From positions 17,106 to 81,105 of the forward strand of contig JACDOK010000006.1 in the NCBI GenBank assembly GCA_017656185.1: DNA of 64,000 nucleotides. Reading direction: 5' to 3'. Made by a program: the position numbers and the translations under genes. Shown here one piece after another: positions 28,909 through 35,697 of this stretch. This DNA is from Peptococcaceae bacterium (lineage in GTDB: Bacteria > Bacillota > Desulfotomaculia > Desulfotomaculales > JACDOK01). The notes under the pieces were generated by a model. It saw only the letters and a list, made by a program, of their open reading frames with translations, was not told the DNA's origin and searched no databases. Position 1 is the stretch's first letter. Each line of letters starts with the position of its first letter.

Positions 28909-29385
28909 TTACTGGGTAACGGCTTCAAACCTGTCATTAACCAGTTCATTGAACAGATTGTCGACCGAAACCGTTCCTACCAGCTGTCCCTGGTCTACTA
29001 CCAGTACCGTGCTTACCTTGCGGTCGTTAAAGATATGGGAGACCTTCATCAGGGTATCGTCAGGGTCAACCACCACCGGTGACCGCATAAGGTCCTTGAC
29101 CTTGCGTTCCGCGACGGCACGCCACTGGTCGGTGAAAAGCCCCTCCCAGAAGATTTCCATTTTAATGTCACCTTTCGTATAGGGAGGATCCAGGATATCC
29201 AGCAGGTCATTCCGGTTAAGCATACCTACTACATTATTCCTTTCCTTAATCAGTACCGTAGGATCCTTCCCCTCCCTTATGGCCTGCATAAATGCCGCTA
29301 CCAATTCCTTAACGCTAGTCTCCGGGCTTACCTCCACCAGCAATGACGGTCCCATGATATCGCGCACACGCTTTTCACTTATCAT
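28909..29385 (-). CDS. Paired-CBS-domain protein (FWEGLFT subtype)
   Basis: A 158-residue protein with two CBS motifs (EKRVRDIMGPSLLVEVSPETSVKELV and RKVKDLMRSPVVVDPDDTLMKVS), the central MEIFWEGLFTDQWRAVAE, and no other domain. It is the third member of the local CBS family. GGGGAGGG precedes the ATG. It is the last gene of a TSUP operon, 14 bp after the HTH gene, and is followed by a strong terminator. An adenine-nucleotide-sensing regulator of the TSUP exporter is a reasonable inference. Confidence 0.87.
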   Translation of the reverse strand: MISEKRVRDIMGPSLLVEVSPETSVKELVAAFMQAIREGKDPTVLIKERNNVVGMLNRNDLLDILDPPYTKGDIKMEIFWEGLFTDQWRAVAERKVKDLMRSPVVVDPDDTLMKVSHIFNDRKVSTVLVVDQGQLVGTVSVDNLFNELVNDRFEAVTQ

Positions 29386-29399
29386 TGATATCCCTCCCC

Positions 29400-29801
29400 T
29401 TATTTTATGTTGTAGTTATCAGTGACCCGTACCTCGGAGGGCAGCTGCCTTTTTAATTGCTGTAAAAGTTCCCTCAAGGCCGGGTCATTAATCCGTTCCA
29501 ACCGCCACCAAAGCCATTTATAACGGAGTTCCCACATTGCCTTGGCCTGTTCCAGCCGGTTGATTTTCTGCTGCAAGCGCTTGTTATGGTCCTTCAGTTC
29601 GAGGAGGAGGTGGTCAGCCTGGCCCTGTTTTTGCGTCATCTGCGCCTGCAATAGATCGAGACCAGCACGAATTAGTTTTTTACGCCACTTGTAGTACGTC
29701 TGGCGCTTAATACCATACTTTTGGCAGAGCTCATCGGTCGTAAGATCGCTGTTCATCCCCTCAAGGACCATATTCAGCATTTGCTCCAGGCCGAACTGCA
29801 C
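29400..29801 (-). CDS. Helix-turn-helix and coiled-coil protein resembling transposase OrfA
   Basis: A 133-residue protein. The N-terminal half holds a helix-turn-helix of the transposase type (TTDELCQKYGIKRQTYYKWRKKLIRAG), followed by a long coiled coil (LLLELKDHNKRLQQKINRLEQAKAMWELRYK) and a C-terminal tail. No OrfB/integrase gene is nearby, and the gene is embedded in the TSUP operon with a good GTG start behind AAGGAGGAG. It is more likely a domesticated DNA-binding regulator than an active IS gene. The target is unknown; the local operon is the first guess. Confidence 0.7.
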   Translation of the reverse strand: MQFGLEQMLNMVLEGMNSDLTTDELCQKYGIKRQTYYKWRKKLIRAGLDLLQAQMTQKQGQADHLLLELKDHNKRLQQKINRLEQAKAMWELRYKWLWWRLERINDPALRELLQQLKRQLPSEVRVTDNYNIK

Positions 29802-29834: not shown

Positions 29835-30542
29835 CTATACCTCTTCCTTGTGAGCCGCCTTGCTCATATTGAGTCCGAGCCCTTCGAAGAGGAAGTAGAT
29901 AGCGAACCCCCACCAAACGGTATAGATAATGTAGAACACCAGCATCCCGGTAACCGTACCGGCAAAATCCGAAACCCGTTCCGGTTTGACACCATAGAAG
30001 TTATAAGCCGGTTCGACGGCCCTTTTCACGATTTCATCTACGAAGGATGCCTGCTTGAAAGCCCCCTGCTTTTTCAAGACACTATCTACTTCGTGCAGGG
30101 CCAGCCACCAGTGATACATCGCATCCTTCTTGTGGTAGCCGTACTTCTCGGTCATTATATCACCCTCGTTGTTGAACATCGCATCGGCATCATTTACGAC
30201 GGCCGCTGCAATATTCCCCAGGTCGCCGTTAATCTTAACTTCGCTGCCGCTCGTTTGAACCTGAGCACCAGACTTCTCAAAGAGAACGGCGGCCTTGGCA
30301 GCGTCATCGGTACTGTCCAGCGTTATGGTCACATCAATCACCTGACCGCGATACCCGTCTACTTGTTCCTTAACTTCCGGGATAAAGTAGGTCGACCCCT
30401 TGGCGATCGAATTGAACAACTGATCGGCAAACTGCAGACCGTTCATCCCGTTGAAGACCGGCGAGTAGATCGCTGCCAACACCAGAAAGAACGAGATAGC
30501 CAAAACTAACCCGATGGTAAAGCTGCGCCCGTTCCGTATCAT
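29835..30542 (-). CDS. TSUP-associated two-helix membrane protein
   Basis: A 235-residue protein with an N-terminal helix (FTIGLVLAISFFLVLAAIYSPVF), about 150 extracytoplasmic residues (ADQLFNSIAKGSTYFIPEVKEQVDGY...), and a C-terminal helix (TGMLVFYIIYTVWWGFAIYFLFEGLGL) with a charged end. Three bases separate it from the upstream TSUP gene, so both are likely made together. It fills the same slot as the CHP02186 proteins in the other TSUP operons, yet its sequence looks unrelated. I do not recognise the family; an accessory subunit is inferred. Confidence 0.75.
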   Translation of the reverse strand: MIRNGRSFTIGLVLAISFFLVLAAIYSPVFNGMNGLQFADQLFNSIAKGSTYFIPEVKEQVDGYRGQVIDVTITLDSTDDAAKAAVLFEKSGAQVQTSGSEVKINGDLGNIAAAVVNDADAMFNNEGDIMTEKYGYHKKDAMYHWWLALHEVDSVLKKQGAFKQASFVDEIVKRAVEPAYNFYGVKPERVSDFAGTVTGMLVFYIIYTVWWGFAIYFLFEGLGLNMSKAAHKEEV

Positions 30543-30545
30543 CCT

Positions 30546-31811
30546 CTATACCTCCTCTCTCAACTTGGGTAGGTTCCTGAAGAAGGTACTTATCACCCAC
30601 ACGGCAAAGATGCCGACAATAATGAAGAAGATCCAATTCCCGGCCACCGTCAGAGCGTTCCCTAAACCCGGGCTGACACTGATTACACCAAGCTTGGAGA
30701 GTTTGGACGGCAGCACAAACAGGCGGTTAAGGAACCCGGCTATGATCGCGGTGGCGTAAAAGCCCCGGATGTAGATACCCTTGACAACCTTAGTCGTAAG
30801 GGCCCCCACCTGAATGCCGATCAGCGAGCCAAGGAGCATCCCCATAGCCAGCGTGTAAAAGATGAACCCGTATACGGCGTACTGCGAAATGGAGGCATAA
30901 CCGGCAGTAAAAATGATCTGCAGGATGTCAGTGCCAACCGTGGTGAAGGACGATACCCCGAGGCCGTAAACGAACATCGGGAAGGTGAGGAAGCCGCCAC
31001 CGACACCCATAATCGCGGCTACGAACCCGACGATACCGCCGCAGCCAGCCACGAAGATGGCCGGGATTTTGCGTCCGCCCGGTACGAGGTCCTGGTCAAA
31101 GGTAATCCTGGGCGGAATGTTGCTCGCCTGCAGGCGACCGGCAATACCCGTCACGGCACCGCCTGCTGCCGCTGTTTCATGTGCTGCGGCGGAATCTATT
31201 TTAGCCACACCGGATCTCTGTCTTAAGAAATCAAACAGCGCGTAAAATCCCAGGAAACCGAGCAGCAATACGTAGATAACGCTGATGAAAGTGTCACTGA
31301 GCACGGGGTTACTCATATACAGAGCCCGGTTCAGAATGCCGCCGCCCGACACGCCGATAAAGGAACCGGCCACAAAGGCTACGGCTAAGCCGATCGACAC
31401 GTTGCCCAGCTTTTTGTGCACCGTGGTGCCCATAATAGCTTTGGCAAAGATATGGAACAAGTCGGTACCTACGGCCAGGATACCCTTAACCCCGACGCTC
31501 ATCAGGGCAGGGGTAATGATAAAGCCGCCCCCGGCACCGATACACCCGGTGATCAACCCGGCACACAGGCCGATCAGGATCGACACTAGGAAGATTTTAG
31601 GAGAATAGAAGGCAGGAGCATAGGCCGACTTCCCGCCCAAGATTCCCGGCAGGTCCGCGGCATAACCGATGATTGGAACAAGCAGCGGCGTACAAAGCAC
31701 AAGCAGTAGAAACAGCTTGCGGCGATCCCTTAGAATAGTCAGTGAGGTTTCGTATTCCCACCTGGCATGGGCTCGTGCTGCCGCTTGAAACATTTCATAG
31801 AGCTTTCTCAA
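30546..31811 (-). CDS. TSUP family exporter, long form
   Basis: At 421 residues this is ~110 longer than the other TSUP proteins here. The extra length is an N-terminal cytoplasmic helix (MFQAAARAHARWEYETSLTILRDRRK), an added transmembrane segment (LFLLLVLCTPLLVPIIGYAA) and a longer central loop. The half-repeats are GCIGAGGGFIITPALMSVGVKG and AIMGVGGGFLTFPMFVYGLGVS, each followed by VGTDLxxI as in the family. Substrate is probably sulfite, sulfate or a similar anion. Its leader contains the first copy of the two-hairpin element, so expression may be set by RNA structure. Confidence 0.9.
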   Translation of the reverse strand: MRKLYEMFQAAARAHARWEYETSLTILRDRRKLFLLLVLCTPLLVPIIGYAADLPGILGGKSAYAPAFYSPKIFLVSILIGLCAGLITGCIGAGGGFIITPALMSVGVKGILAVGTDLFHIFAKAIMGTTVHKKLGNVSIGLAVAFVAGSFIGVSGGGILNRALYMSNPVLSDTFISVIYVLLLGFLGFYALFDFLRQRSGVAKIDSAAAHETAAAGGAVTGIAGRLQASNIPPRITFDQDLVPGGRKIPAIFVAGCGGIVGFVAAIMGVGGGFLTFPMFVYGLGVSSFTTVGTDILQIIFTAGYASISQYAVYGFIFYTLAMGMLLGSLIGIQVGALTTKVVKGIYIRGFYATAIIAGFLNRLFVLPSKLSKLGVISVSPGLGNALTVAGNWIFFIIVGIFAVWVISTFFRNLPKLREEV

Positions 31812-31939
31812 CGGTAATACCCCCTTTTAGTTGATTAATCAGTAAGCATTAAGTAATATCGTTTTCGTTTTCAGCGAAACATGCCTTAACATAACCATCC
31901 CAGCTGGTATCACCCCCCTTAAAACGCGGTATATAAAAA

Positions 31940-32027
31940 GGCCGGCTTACCCCCGCCCGGAACCTTCCCCGCGCTTTGAATATCCGAGAGTAGGGGGCAT
32001 GCCGGCCTATCGTTTTTCGATTCGGCC
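31940..32027 (-). ncRNA. Two-hairpin RNA-like element, copy 1
   Basis: On the minus strand GGCCGAATCGAAAAACGATAGGCC is followed by a second stem GGCCGGC...GCCGGCC with inner CCCCC/GGGGG, then TTTTTATA. The middle GGCC can pair with the first or the last one. It lies 21 bp after the 73-residue ORF and 129 bp before the TSUP start. Confidence 0.65.
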
Positions 32028-32048
32028 TTTATTCGTATTGGATTGTCC

Positions 32049-32270
32049 TTAATCCCTATACCTGGCCACGGGCACCGCTTCCGTCAAATCTTTCAAAATA
32101 CTGGCATCATTGTTTCTCTGAGCGGCTATTATTTGCCTGAGCCGGTTACCCTTTATCAATACACAGCGCCCACCCGGTACCATAACGCGATACCATTCAA
32201 TTCCCGGTACCGGGATAATGCGGCAACCCAATGCTTCCAGGCGTTCAAACACCATCCGCATGTCAGTCAT
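32049..32270 (-). CDS. Small conserved-looking protein of unknown function
   Basis: About 73 residues beginning MTDMRMVFERLEALGCRIIPVPGIEWYRVMVPGGRCVLIKGNRLRQIIAAQ. The ORF-track start at 32378 overlaps the DUF2292 gene in another frame; an ATG at 32270 with GGAGGTGATCC in front is much better. It follows the 67-residue DUF2292-type gene by 16 bp and ends just before the first two-hairpin element. I do not recognise it. No signal peptide or membrane helix is visible. Confidence 0.65.
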   Translation of the reverse strand: MTDMRMVFERLEALGCRIIPVPGIEWYRVMVPGGRCVLIKGNRLRQIIAAQRNNDASILKDLTEAVPVARYRD

Positions 32271-32286
32271 GCGGATCACCTCCGGA

Positions 32287-32490
32287 TCAACCCGAGAGAC
32301 GGGGTTTGTGGCGGCGGCTGCCGGCAACCCGCTCTGGCACTTCGTCCTCTTCCAGCTTTCGTGTTTTAATAGCCTCATAAATGACCACGGGCTGCCCGTT
32401 TTCCACCCTGATCTTGACCTCGCCCCAGCCTAACTGCCGGAGGAAAGCTATAAGCTGTCTTTCCCGGTTTGTTAAGTCGCTGATCGACAT
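32287..32490 (-). CDS. DUF2292-type small protein
   Basis: A 67-residue protein: SDLTNRERQLIAFLRQLGWGEVKIRVENGQPVVIYEAIKTRKLEED, with a basic tail. The GWGEVKIRVENGQPV core matches the DUF2292 pattern and is nearly identical to the protein at 33211. The family's role is unknown. It is preceded by the second two-hairpin element and followed closely by another small gene. The repeated pairing with a UspA gene hints at stress or dormancy, which is inference only. Confidence 0.72.
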   Translation of the reverse strand: MSISDLTNRERQLIAFLRQLGWGEVKIRVENGQPVVIYEAIKTRKLEEDEVPERVAGSRRHKPRLSG

Positions 32491-32528
32491 CGCGCCTCAC
32501 GCTCCTCCAGCACTTCAGTGCTGAAAAA

Positions 32529-32591
32529 GGCCGCTACCCTCCCCCTTGGCACACGGGGGAGAATAACGGCCTATCGTTGTTCGATTCAGCC
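32529..32591 (-). ncRNA. Two-hairpin RNA-like element, copy 2
   Basis: Minus-strand GGCTGAATCGAACAACGATAGGCC then GGCCGTTATTCTCCCCC...GGGGGAGGGTAGCGGCC and TTTTTC. It begins 30 bp after the uspA stop and ends 38 bp before the DUF2292 gene start. The loop sequence differs from the other copies, while the stem is kept. Confidence 0.65.
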
Positions 32592-32621
32592 TTTAATATT
32601 TAATTGAGTTAATTAATTAAA

Positions 32622-33074
32622 TTATTTAATGAGGATTACCGGGCACGGCGCCATTTGCAAAACTTTATGACTGACACTACCAAGGAATATTTCCTTTAAA
32701 TTACTCATGCCGCGCGTACCCATCACAATCAGGTCGACACCGTGCTTGCGGGCATACTCGCTGATTTCCTCGGCGGGATTGCCGGCACCGTAATCAGACT
32801 GGACATTAATGCCCTTTTCTTTGAAGACCGCTTCCGCCTGTTCCAAGATACGCTGGCGCTCCTCGGCAAACACTTCCCGAATGTGTTTACCCTGTTCACC
32901 CCAGTCAGCCGCCACCCAGTAGAGACGGCGCGATATATAACTGCGCGGAATGCGGTCAACAGTAAAAACGGTGACTTTACTGTTGGGGTTGAATTTGGCC
33001 AACTCTGCCGCATATTGGGCAGCACGCATGGCACACTCCGACCCGTCAACAGGTACCAAAATGTTGTTAATCAT
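32622..33074 (-). CDS. Universal stress protein, UspA family
   Basis: A 150-residue protein. MINNILVPVDGSECAMRAAQYAAELA is the usual start of the fold, and VMGTRGMSNLKEIFLGSVSHKVL gives the ATP-binding G-2X-G-9X-G-S/T motif, so it belongs to the ATP-binding subgroup. Such proteins help survival under stress or energy limitation. The ATG at 33074 follows GGGAGGTGA and is preferred over 33152. Two-hairpin elements lie both upstream (33135) and downstream (32529) of it. Confidence 0.93.
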   Translation of the reverse strand: MINNILVPVDGSECAMRAAQYAAELAKFNPNSKVTVFTVDRIPRSYISRRLYWVAADWGEQGKHIREVFAEERQRILEQAEAVFKEKGINVQSDYGAGNPAEEISEYARKHGVDLIVMGTRGMSNLKEIFLGSVSHKVLQMAPCPVILIK

Positions 33075-33134
33075 AGGCGTCACCTCCCAATTAAAACTTT
33101 TTTGGTAAGCTTGGTTCAGCCCTTTAATACCAAA

Positions 33135-33199
33135 GGCCGTTACCCTCCCCATTACATCAGTTTGGGAAGAATAACGGCCTATCGTTGTTCGATTCGGCC
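33135..33199 (-). ncRNA. Two-hairpin RNA-like element, copy 3
   Basis: Minus-strand GGCCGAATCGAACAACGATAGGCC then GGCCGTTATTCTTCCC...GGGGAGGGTAACGGCC with a perfect 8-bp outer stem; only TTT follows. It starts 11 bp after the DUF2292 stop at 33211 and ends 60 bp before the uspA start. Confidence 0.65.
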
Positions 33200-33210
33200 C
33201 GTTTTCAATT

Positions 33211-33444
33211 TTATCTCAGGCATATCTCTGCCACTTCCTGAAGCGGCTTGATTACTATTCCTTTCCGGTCTTTCCGGTTGCTGCCAGGTTTTTCCTCCAG
33301 GCGCACGGTACGGATAGCTTCGTAAACCACTACCGGTTGACCGTTCTCGACTCTTAGTTTGACCTCGCCCCAACCCATTTGGCGCAGAAAATATATTAGC
33401 TTTTTTTCCCGGCTTGTTAGATTGAAAGGACCTCGCTCATCCAC
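33211..33444 (-). CDS. DUF2292-type small protein
   Basis: A 77-residue paralogue of the protein at 32287: FNLTSREKKLIYFLRQMGWGEVKLRVENGQPVVVYEAIRTVRLEEKPG, with its own C-terminal extension (KGIVIKPLQEVAEICLR). I take the GTG at 33444, preceded by GGAAGGGGTGG, over the ATG at 33471. It is followed 11 bp downstream by the third two-hairpin element and then uspA. The paralogues suggest a duplicated cassette of RNA element plus small gene. Biological role unknown. Confidence 0.72.
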   Translation of the reverse strand: MDERGPFNLTSREKKLIYFLRQMGWGEVKLRVENGQPVVVYEAIRTVRLEEKPGSNRKDRKGIVIKPLQEVAEICLR

Positions 33445-33812: not shown

Positions 33813-34190
33813 CTACTCGTCCTCTTTATTAACCACCATTCTTTTCACCGTGGCACGCAGCTCAGCTACACTAAAGGGCTTGATTATATATCCCGTTGCG
33901 CCTTTGGAAATTGCTGCGGAGGCTACATCGATGCTGCCATGGCCGGTGATGAGGATCAGCGGTACCTGGGCATCAACCTGCCTGACTCTCCGTACCACTT
34001 CCAGTCCGTCCATGTCCGGCATTTTTAAATCCACCAACACCGCTGCCGGCTTTTCATTAAAAAACAATTCCAGTCCCTCACGCCCCCCACCGGCGGTCAC
34101 CGGTATAAAACCTTCCTGTTCCATGGCCTTGGCGAGGACCCAGCGCATCTCTTCCTCATCATCGATGATTAAAATCTTAGGCTCTGCCAT
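33813..34190 (-). CDS. Single-domain response regulator (CheY-like)
   Basis: A 125-residue receiver domain with no output domain: KILIIDDEEEMRWVLAKAME, phosphoacceptor Asp in AVLVDLKMPDMDG, the conserved threonine in LILITGHG, and the lysine in GYIIKPFS. The sequence is close to the receiver of the sigma-54 regulator at 24681, suggesting loss of the AAA+ and HTH parts or a phosphate-relay role. The ATG at 34190 follows AAAGGAGATGGG. It lies one base after the sensor-kinase gene, so the two form a pair. Confidence 0.9.
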   Translation of the reverse strand: MAEPKILIIDDEEEMRWVLAKAMEQEGFIPVTAGGGREGLELFFNEKPAAVLVDLKMPDMDGLEVVRRVRQVDAQVPLILITGHGSIDVASAAISKGATGYIIKPFSVAELRATVKRMVVNKEDE

Positions 34191-34191
34191 T

Positions 34192-35697
34192 CTACCCATC
34201 TCCTTTCGTTACCGGTAGGTATACCGTCATTTTCGTACCCGATCCGGGTTTGCTTTCAGCCTTAATCTGCCCGCCATGAACCCCGATAATCTGCTGGCTT
34301 ATGGCCAGGCCCAGCCCGCTGCCGCCTTCTTTGGTAGTGTAATAGGGTTCAAAAATGTGCGGCAGGTCATCGGCAGCAATACCCTTTCCGGTATCCTCAA
34401 AGGTAACGCGTATCCATTCGTCTGCCTGCTGCGAGGTAATAATCAGGGACCCGCCCTCCGGCATAGCCTGCACAGCATTAATGATCAGGTTTAAGAAGAC
34501 CTGTTTCAACTTTTCCTGGCTTCCTATCACCTGAGGCAAATCATCGGCCAGCCGGAGCTGCAGGTCAATGTGAAGGCGACGCAGCAGGGCATCGGAAAAG
34601 TTCAATACGCTTTGTACCAGCTCGTTTACATCAAGAGGCTGCAGCTTGCCGTTATCCGGTTTCCCAAAATCGAGCAGTTCGTCAACAATCTTATTTTGAC
34701 GTTCAATCTGCTGCTTCATGCGCTTAATATATTCTTTTATGCCTGAACATTCCTTAAGATCATCCTCCATTACTTCTACAGTCGCCCTCAGGATCCCAAG
34801 AGGATTCCGTAATTCGTGGGCAATTCCGGTTACCAGCCTTCCCAAAGCCGCCAAACAATCGGCCCGCCGCAGTTGTTCCTTCAGTTGTTCCTTTTCCGCC
34901 AGCCCGTCCGCCATCTTGTTGATCGCTTTGGCAATCTGTCCCATCTCTCCCGGCATGGGTGCCAGCCGAAAGCCGGTATCGTACTCCAGCGCTTCTAAAC
35001 CTTTTTTAATCCTGCTGATATGACGGGTAACGTTAAAAACGACGACCATAAGCCCTAAAATACATACGCAAAAGACAATTAGCATTGTATAGCGTGTAAT
35101 CAGGCGAAAATGATAGCTCTTGGCAAAAATTGGGTGCATGCGTTCCTCCGCCCATACTACGGCCACCGGCTCTCCGTTCACCATCACAGGACGCAGGTAT
35201 TCCAGGAATTCATCGTCCCAGGTTCGCCCCAGCCTCGAGATCGCATCCCGGGTCGCGAGGGCAGCCTGGATTCCGGCTGATACCTCTCTTAAAATGCGCT
35301 GCTCGCGCCGTTTCTGTTCCGCCGGGGAAAGCTCCCTGTACTCGTGCAGAAAGCCTTCCACATACATCTCGTCAGTTTTAGGCAGGTACAGTCCCAAGCG
35401 TACCCCGGCATACTCCGATGCCAGGGGCTTGGCCGTCTTTGTAAAGACAGCCGCCAACTTGTTACCGGTATCTTGGGCCCCTTTTTCTTCTATCTCTTTC
35501 GCAGCCGCACTCTCCAGTTTAGATGAAAGTTCAGTGACAATTTCACCAAGGCGTTTCTCCTTCTCTTTCAGCACCACTTCGTCACTCTTGCTGGCGTAAA
35601 GCAGGTCGTAAAGCATTACAAGCACCGGTACCACCAAAACCACCAGTACAATAGCAATGAGCTGAAAGCGCATGCCCCGGTTTCTGATTAACGCCAC
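34192..35697 (-). CDS. Membrane sensor histidine kinase
   Basis: A 501-residue paralogue of the kinase at 23171. TM helix near 14-34, an extracytoplasmic sensor (EYAGVRLGLYLPKTDEMYVEGFLHEYRELSPAEQKRREQ), a second TM (MLIVFCVCILGLMVVVFNVT), HAMP, HisKA box GIAHELRNPLG, and HATPase motifs NLIINAVQAMPEGG, DTGKGIAADD and GSGLGLAISQQI. Both kinases have the WAEERxxPIFxKSxHFR stretch just before TM2. The duplicate kinase with a bare receiver suggests signal integration or phosphate dumping between the two systems. Confidence 0.93.
   Translation of the reverse strand: MALIRNRGMRFQLIAIVLVVLVVPVLVMLYDLLYASKSDEVVLKEKEKRLGEIVTELSSKLESAAAKEIEEKGAQDTGNKLAAVFTKTAKPLASEYAGVRLGLYLPKTDEMYVEGFLHEYRELSPAEQKRREQRILREVSAGIQAALATRDAISRLGRTWDDEFLEYLRPVMVNGEPVAVVWAEERMHPIFAKSYHFRLITRYTMLIVFCVCILGLMVVVFNVTRHISRIKKGLEALEYDTGFRLAPMPGEMGQIAKAINKMADGLAEKEQLKEQLRRADCLAALGRLVTGIAHELRNPLGILRATVEVMEDDLKECSGIKEYIKRMKQQIERQNKIVDELLDFGKPDNGKLQPLDVNELVQSVLNFSDALLRRLHIDLQLRLADDLPQVIGSQEKLKQVFLNLIINAVQAMPEGGSLIITSQQADEWIRVTFEDTGKGIAADDLPHIFEPYYTTKEGGSGLGLAISQQIIGVHGGQIKAESKPGSGTKMTVYLPVTKGDG

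Follow-up and report, generated by a model that had tools for sequence, protein, structure and literature searches.

Three copies of a two-hairpin element lie between the genes of one array in the window, the 64,000-nucleotide stretch of a Peptococcaceae contig that was analysed here. The question was whether these copies are elaborate terminators or controlled attenuators. The copies were found on the minus strand where the earlier note had placed them, with their first hairpin (hp1) starting at 32027, 32591 and 33199. Copy 3 covers 33128..33199 (-), and its hp1 at 33199-33176 (GGCC-GA-ATCG-AACAA-CGAT-A-GGCC) overlaps a terminator, AGGCCGTTATTCT...AGGGTAACGGCCT, at 33180-33134. Copy 2 covers 32522..32591 (-), with hp1 at 32568-32591, the terminator end at 32529 and the U-run at 32528-32524. 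Copy 1 covers 31933..32027 (-), with hp1 at 32027-32004, a long-loop terminator ending at 31940 and the U-run at 31939-31935.

In all three copies hp1 has the form GGCY-GA-ATCG-AANAA-CGAT-A-GGCC and is adjoined without a gap by an intrinsic terminator, such that the last A-GGCC of hp1 is the start of the terminator 5' arm. The three GGCC blocks that had been reported allow two exclusive pairings, one in the lower stem of hp1 and the other at the base of the terminator, and the difference between the outer stems GGCCGGC/GCCGGCC and GGCCGTTA/TAACGGCC is real. Copies 1 and 2 end in TTTTT, as had been noted, and copy 3 ends in TTTGG; the GC-rich hairpin and U-run of an intrinsic terminator are present, the U-run of copy 3 being poor. 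When folding was compared with shuffled sequences, copies 2 and 3 were far better (z of -6.4 and -5.8) and copy 1 with its long loop gave a z of -2.5. Exactly 3 occurrences of GGCYGAATCGAANAACGATAGGCC were counted in the genome of 2.3 Mb, against 0 for the reversed pattern used as control; the window copies are the sole near-matches to the motif in this genome.

The gene order on the minus strand is a DUF2292-like gene, UspA, a second DUF2292-like gene with a small ORF, and TSUP, and the three copies stand in series between them, 12, 31 and 22 bp past the upstream gene, in agreement with the spacings given before. The first DUF2292-like (YezD/OscA-like) gene, at 33211..33444 (-), encodes a small protein that is a candidate RNA-binding antiterminator, and copy 3 follows it 12 bp downstream. 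Copy 3 leads a UspA family gene (32622..33074, -; PF00582, E=2.6e-34), copy 2 the second DUF2292-like gene (32287..32490, -) and copy 1 a TSUP (TauE/SafE) permease gene (30546..31811, -; PF01925, E=1.3e-30). A 73-aa ORF with no Pfam family lies in the interval before copy 1 (32049..32270, -). The TSUP gene is followed by one for a 235-aa membrane-anchored protein, also with no Pfam family (29835..30542, -), and the same cluster holds a CBS-domain protein gene (28909..29385, -) that is led by the element in some relatives. Upstream of the array are a receiver-only response regulator without an ANTAR domain (33813..34199, -) and the histidine kinase of this two-component pair (34192..35697, -), whose co-occurrence with the element is inconsistent. 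Homologues of the membrane-anchored protein of about 236 residues were found near the element in 14 genomes. The window cluster also contains a transposase-type HTH protein (29400-29801), and in one other genome (G004) a 289-residue HTH protein (L093:12568-13437), likewise clustering with the CBS family, is element-led.

The DUF2292 name that had been given to the small proteins held at the level of the family and not by Pfam alone. PF10055 matched one window protein, the second, with E=0.034 and the other one not at all, and the name is a remote match; the single proteins are below the Pfam cut-off, and the Pfam and NCBIfam names are too weak by themselves. The profile-profile comparison with classic DUF2292/YezD gave a probability of 97% and E=8e-11.

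The spread of the element was then analysed in related genomes. With up to 3 mismatches the motif was found in 18 of 60 relatives, with 1 match in the reversed-pattern controls, and a scan of the sequence collection with a 20-nt core gave 26 stretches, mainly from Peptococcaceae and Desulfotomaculum-type genomes. A covariance model of this core element (R1, cut-off >36 bits) scored the window copies 1, 2 and 3 at 59.9, 63.6 and 62.6 bits and found about 100 copies in 34 of the 113 genomes of the order, often several on one strand. Desulfofundulus thermobenzoicus (L036) is among the isolates with the element. The class consensus of the 24-nt hp1 is RGCY-GA-ATCG-AACAA-CGAT-A-GGCY, with AGGCC of its 3' arm as the 5' base of the terminator. 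Among 49 distinct elements, two-sided changes were observed at 5 of the 8 pairs of hp1 (AGCC/GGCT, GACC/GGTC, ATGG/CCAT, ATTG/CAAT) and at 10 of the 12 pairs of the terminator. None of 500 shuffles equalled the observed covariation score, and sliding the pairing partners abolished the signal. The search with a covariance model, which the earlier note had suggested, returned many copies from related genomes, and covariation is strong in each of the two helices. The columns that hp1 and the terminator have in common show consistent pairing in either structure, which is the signature of alternative structures. Outside the order there was 1 clear R1 match, a genuine variant in G200 (38.7 bits). 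Matches of 24-30 bits outside the order were mostly ordinary GGCC-type terminators without hp1 and were left uncounted; a match in Xenorhabdus (L056), with no terminator, was judged to be chance. Desulforudis-type variants (L109:6487-6561, L109:6739-6807 and L129:9111-9186) have hp1 and then a separate terminator (GGCGGG/CCCGCC); here GGCCGCUUU could pair with the 5' arm of the separate terminator, which might invert the logic.

The same 5 nucleotides close hp1 or form the base of the terminator, never both. In the minimum-energy fold AGGCC was inside the terminator in 99 of 102 distinct elements, and termination is therefore the default. Locking hp1 costs 6.0 +/- 3.8 kcal/mol (102 elements), so a stabilising factor is needed for read-through; forced hp1 strips the terminator of the base pairs adjoining the U-run. 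The conservation of unpaired residues is centred on the GA/A internal loop and the AACAA loop (75 of 102) and ends abruptly upstream of hp1. This pattern suggests that hp1 is recognised by a protein. The loop has 5 nt in the core form and 4-6 nt overall (AACAA, ACAA), and a G at loop position 4 occurs in 0 of 102 core copies.

A terminator ends every copy and many copies lie 10-100 bp after a gene of the same strand, as would be seen if the elements were plain intrinsic terminators and the hairpin before them were conserved for a non-regulatory role, for example as a 3'-UTR stability element or a processing site. However, the upstream neighbour is oppositely oriented for 26 of 105 copies, and pairs of copies stand back to back between divergent genes in several cases, which makes the elements leaders or intercistronic gates and more than gene ends. 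The next gene was on the same strand for 89 of the 99 copies that have a gene before the contig end. In addition, hp1 is sharply conserved and the terminator loop is not, and the presence of the element in a genome tracks DUF2292. Plain termination is therefore very unlikely, and the elaborate terminator that the earlier note had offered as an alternative is disfavoured by the divergently oriented leader copies and the sharp conservation of hp1. Same-strand clusters with one copy per gene, and the occurrence of a related classic form in phages, might also recall a mobile or integron-type repeat (an attC-like site) spread with gene cassettes. Against this, no flank is conserved beyond hp1, the terminator halves are unrelated in sequence between copies and yet covary, and the target genes are functionally coherent while differing between lineages; we give such an origin hardly any credit.

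TSUP permeases were the commonest neighbour family (25 genomes), with DUF2292-like proteins in 23, the kinase in 23 and the receiver-only regulator in 22. Further recurrent neighbours are CBS proteins, a 65-aa membrane protein, DASS/SLC13 symporters, UspA and PiT-family transporters, and a formate/nitrite transporter (FNT) is the target in one genome family. The proposal of a controlled attenuator for a transport and stress regulon is supported by the covariation in the alternative helices, the leader placement and this recurrent set of targets. A 146-residue protein with a weak beta/gamma-crystallin match is often found behind 1-2 tandem elements (L099:8697-9137, L112:9598-10038, L125:7914-8354 and others).

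The phyletic distribution was compared among the 113 genomes of the order, with a cut-off of E<1e-20 for presence of the DUF2292-like family. The family was present in 34 genomes and the element in 34, with 33 in common (p=3e-26). In the Pelotomaculum-type family f7 a lone DUF2292-like gene has no element near it, and the element precedes an FNT transporter gene on a different contig; because the two are on separate contigs, the link goes beyond mere adjacency. One element genome (G009) is without the DUF2292-like protein, and there a classic DUF2292 gene adjoins a variant element. In G077 (L175), three DUF2292-like genes lie beside the kinase and regulator pair and no element was detected. 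The co-occurrence points to the DUF2292 family as the trans-acting factor, a partner that the earlier note had not named. Co-occurrence alone cannot separate a protein that acts on the RNA from one that is always needed with it, and since the DUF2292-like genes are also targets, a part of the linkage is expected of any regulon member.

Next in frequency among the neighbours come the kinase and receiver genes, and ANTAR proteins are common in the order; hp1 might be read by another trans factor, either the linked two-component system (kinase and receiver-only regulator) or an ANTAR or BglG-type protein. The full-length histidine kinase, however, is missing from 10 of the 34 element genomes and present in 27 without the element. 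ANTAR proteins occur in 99 of 113 genomes whether or not the element is present, and the two-hexaloop motif is absent; the CAT_RBD domain of BglG was found in 2 of the 113, both of which lack the element. We consider another trans factor improbable and return to the DUF2292-family protein as the preferred partner.

The 3-kb loci around classic PF10055 (DUF2292/YezD) genes were searched with an architecture finder that required the lower stem, the RA/A internal loop, any inner stem and an overlapping T-tailed terminator. Matches were found directly downstream of many classic PF10055 genes, in the order and across Bacillota, at a background of 3 per 780 kb and with 0 in shuffles; some classic PF10055 genes are without a recognisable element. 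The classic consensus is RGYT-GA-CCNG-ANAA-CNGG-A-GGCY, for example GGCT-GA-CCAG-ACAA-CTGG-A-GGCC. In cases such as L216, L218 and L220 the terminator extends into the inner stem, CTGGAGGC...GCCTCCAG, and exclusion is therefore complete. When 33 diverse hp1 of the core and classic forms were pooled, two-sided changes were seen at 7 of 8 pairs, and 97.7% of the cells were paired.

A second covariance model (R2) was trained solely on classic elements, partly at loci found via PF10055. It scored window copies 1, 2 and 3 at 28.8, 29.6 and 28 bits, and judged by these scores of 28-29.6 bits the ATCG form of the window and the classic elements are one class. R2 gave matches in 50 of 399 Bacillota genomes. 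Of these 50, 41 have PF10055 (67 of 399 overall; p=2e-29). The training makes plain adjacency a biased measure, and the fair test is that on the non-training genomes: with the training genomes removed, 25 of 33 R2-positive genomes had PF10055 (p=2e-18). PF10055 was not matched in 8 R2-positive genomes. In the genus g25 the ATCG RNA occurs with the DUF2292-like protein in G071 and G073, and the CCAG RNA with classic DUF2292 in G026, G069, G070 and G072. The RNA type tracks the protein type within this genus. In a Cytobacillus plasmid locus (L282) that was retrieved through protein similarity alone, the element sits exactly at the stop codon of YezD and ahead of cysH; the order in Cytobacillus spongiae is SAM riboswitch, YezD, element, cysH, PiT transporter, sat, cysC and sulfite reductase.

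These data also bear on the possibility that the hp1 RNA senses a small molecule as a minimal riboswitch-like attenuator and that the DUF2292 proteins are mere members of its regulon. The terminator as default fold and the high conservation of hp1 would fit this, and known riboswitches just upstream of the DUF2292 gene at several loci indicate that these are ligand-controlled units. A 24-nt hairpin with a 2x1 internal loop, though, is small for a selective ligand pocket, and the wholesale swap of the inner stem between DUF2292 subfamilies (ATCG/CGAT versus CCAG/CTGG) is odd for a fixed ligand. The Pelotomaculum-type protein gene without a nearby element likewise speaks for more than a co-regulated gene. 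Direct sensing of a ligand by hp1 is accordingly improbable, and recognition by the DUF2292-family protein is preferred. The riboswitches were observed upstream of DUF2292-element modules at L210:1745-1850 (-), L282:3808-3913, L195:1295-1380 and L184:790-926; their types are SAM-I twice (L210, L282), c-di-GMP-I and Moco, and the module order of riboswitch, DUF2292 gene, element and target amounts to two attenuators in series.

Rfam 15 gave no match to the window at the gathering threshold and none at E<=5 in 31900-33250, and there was no above-threshold match at the classic elements. The open papers searched (YezD, cysH antitermination, Desulfotomaculum antiterminators) contained no description of the element, and for the DUF2292 family they described no RNA element or biochemical activity. 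The class is large and, within a search that covered Rfam 15 and open papers, apparently undescribed; the earlier note too had known of no matching RNA class. The AlphaFold model of the DUF2292-like protein had low confidence (pLDDT 61) and showed a helix and a beta-hairpin; a Foldseek search with this model gave no RNA-binding relative and no meaningful match, and a PDB sequence search with the protein gave nothing.

Among known systems, the BglG/SacY/LicT proteins with their RAT sites are similar in that one hairpin overlaps the 5' arm of an intrinsic terminator, termination is the default, and a small regulatory protein, often encoded in the very operon that it controls, stabilises the hairpin (PMC3369931); we infer the protein step for the present element. 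The corresponding overlap is found here, with AGGCC common to both helices and both helices covarying. RAT is a hairpin of 29-30 nt that is bound by the CAT RNA-binding domain in PTS control, whereas hp1 has 24 nt and one GA/A internal loop. The ANTAR systems (EutV, NasR, AmiR) also have an antiterminator overlapping a terminator and several gates per operon, the dependence on a protein being again inferred for our element. ANTAR sites consist of two tandem small hairpins with hexaloops that have A at position 1 and G at position 4 (PMC3369931); in contrast, the element has one hairpin with a 4-6-nt loop and nothing conserved upstream of hp1, and the regulator linked to it is receiver-only. 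SAM-I (S-box) leaders of cysH operons resemble it as transcription attenuation under sulfur control in Bacillota, but SAM-I is a separate ligand-sensing RNA; at L210 and L282 the DUF2292 gene stands between the two, with SAM-I on its upstream side and the new element on its downstream side. The candidate partner belongs by profile comparison to OscA/YezD/DUF2292 (PF10055, NF033785).

The classic elements of Bacillota precede cysH, sat, cysK, sulfate/sulfonate ABC, nif and phage genes. The products encoded after them include PAPS reductase, ATP sulfurylase, cysteine synthase-type and ABC transporter proteins, NifH and a NifB-like radical SAM protein, as well as AOR, a corrinoid protein and a phage sigma-70 region 4 protein; additional targets are PdxS, a FeMo-cofactor family protein, an ABC ATPase, a solute-binding protein, a UPF0324-type permease and a URO-D protein. 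This broader range of targets speaks for sulfur supply more than for general stress. For OscA, the proteobacterial DUF2292 protein, PMC2996968 (citing Viti et al. 2009) and PMC12892942 describe a genetic tie to the sulfur-starvation response and a location beside sulfate-transport genes, with the function given there as unknown. From this link and the sulfur-gene targets, the proposed signal would be sulfur limitation. The classic hairpin was also present in 13 viral contigs (L269-L281), and at least 5 of them (L270, L271, L275, L276 and L277) have a DUF2292 gene immediately before it, which suggests that phages may use the same antitermination; tblastn of a phage-type DUF2292 against phage GenBank records gave no match.

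Taken together, the element is real, its antiterminator and terminator are mutually exclusive, and it is tied to the DUF2292 family at the genome level. We propose, with a probability of roughly three in four, an attenuator in which a DUF2292-family protein would bind hp1 as an antiterminator, with autoregulation and control in trans. The element, the covariation, the exclusivity, the leader placement and the co-occurrence are observed, and binding, direction and signal are the predicted parts. During transcription of the leader, hp1 with its 4-bp lower stem, GA/A internal loop, 4-bp inner stem and A-rich loop would form first. By default AGGCC would leave hp1 on refolding and build the base of the intrinsic terminator, and the polymerase would stop before the next gene. 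The small DUF2292-family (YezD/OscA-like) protein may bind and lock hp1, reading the GA/A loop, the A-rich loop and the identity of the inner stem; the terminator would then lack the 4-5 base pairs that adjoin the U-run, and the polymerase would read through. With the DUF2292 gene usually directly before or after the element, this would amount to autoregulation, and other leaders would be controlled in trans. The window array would have three such gates in series. As physiological signal, a shortage of sulfur or of imported oxyanions is probable. DUF2292-dependent antitermination is the most economical mechanism, with a logic like that of BglG/RAT and a protein and RNA unrelated to it.

In conclusion, DUF2292 (YezD/OscA), a widespread family of 50-80 residues, is likely to be a new family of sequence-specific RNA-binding antiterminators that, with its cognate hairpin/terminator RNA, would form a system across many Bacillota and phages controlling sulfate and organosulfur assimilation, sulfur-compound transporters, nitrogenase and phage genes. 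With a protein of about 60 residues and a 24-nt RNA whose stem is specific to the subfamily, the pair lends itself to direct testing and could serve as a compact, orthogonal part for gene control. If this is true, BglG/RAT and ANTAR would be joined by a third system of RNA-protein antitermination, and an uncharacterised protein family, whose role in sulfur starvation is known but unexplained, would gain a function. In Bacillota, sulfate assimilation, nitrogenase and phage genes would then be seen to have a further level of regulation.
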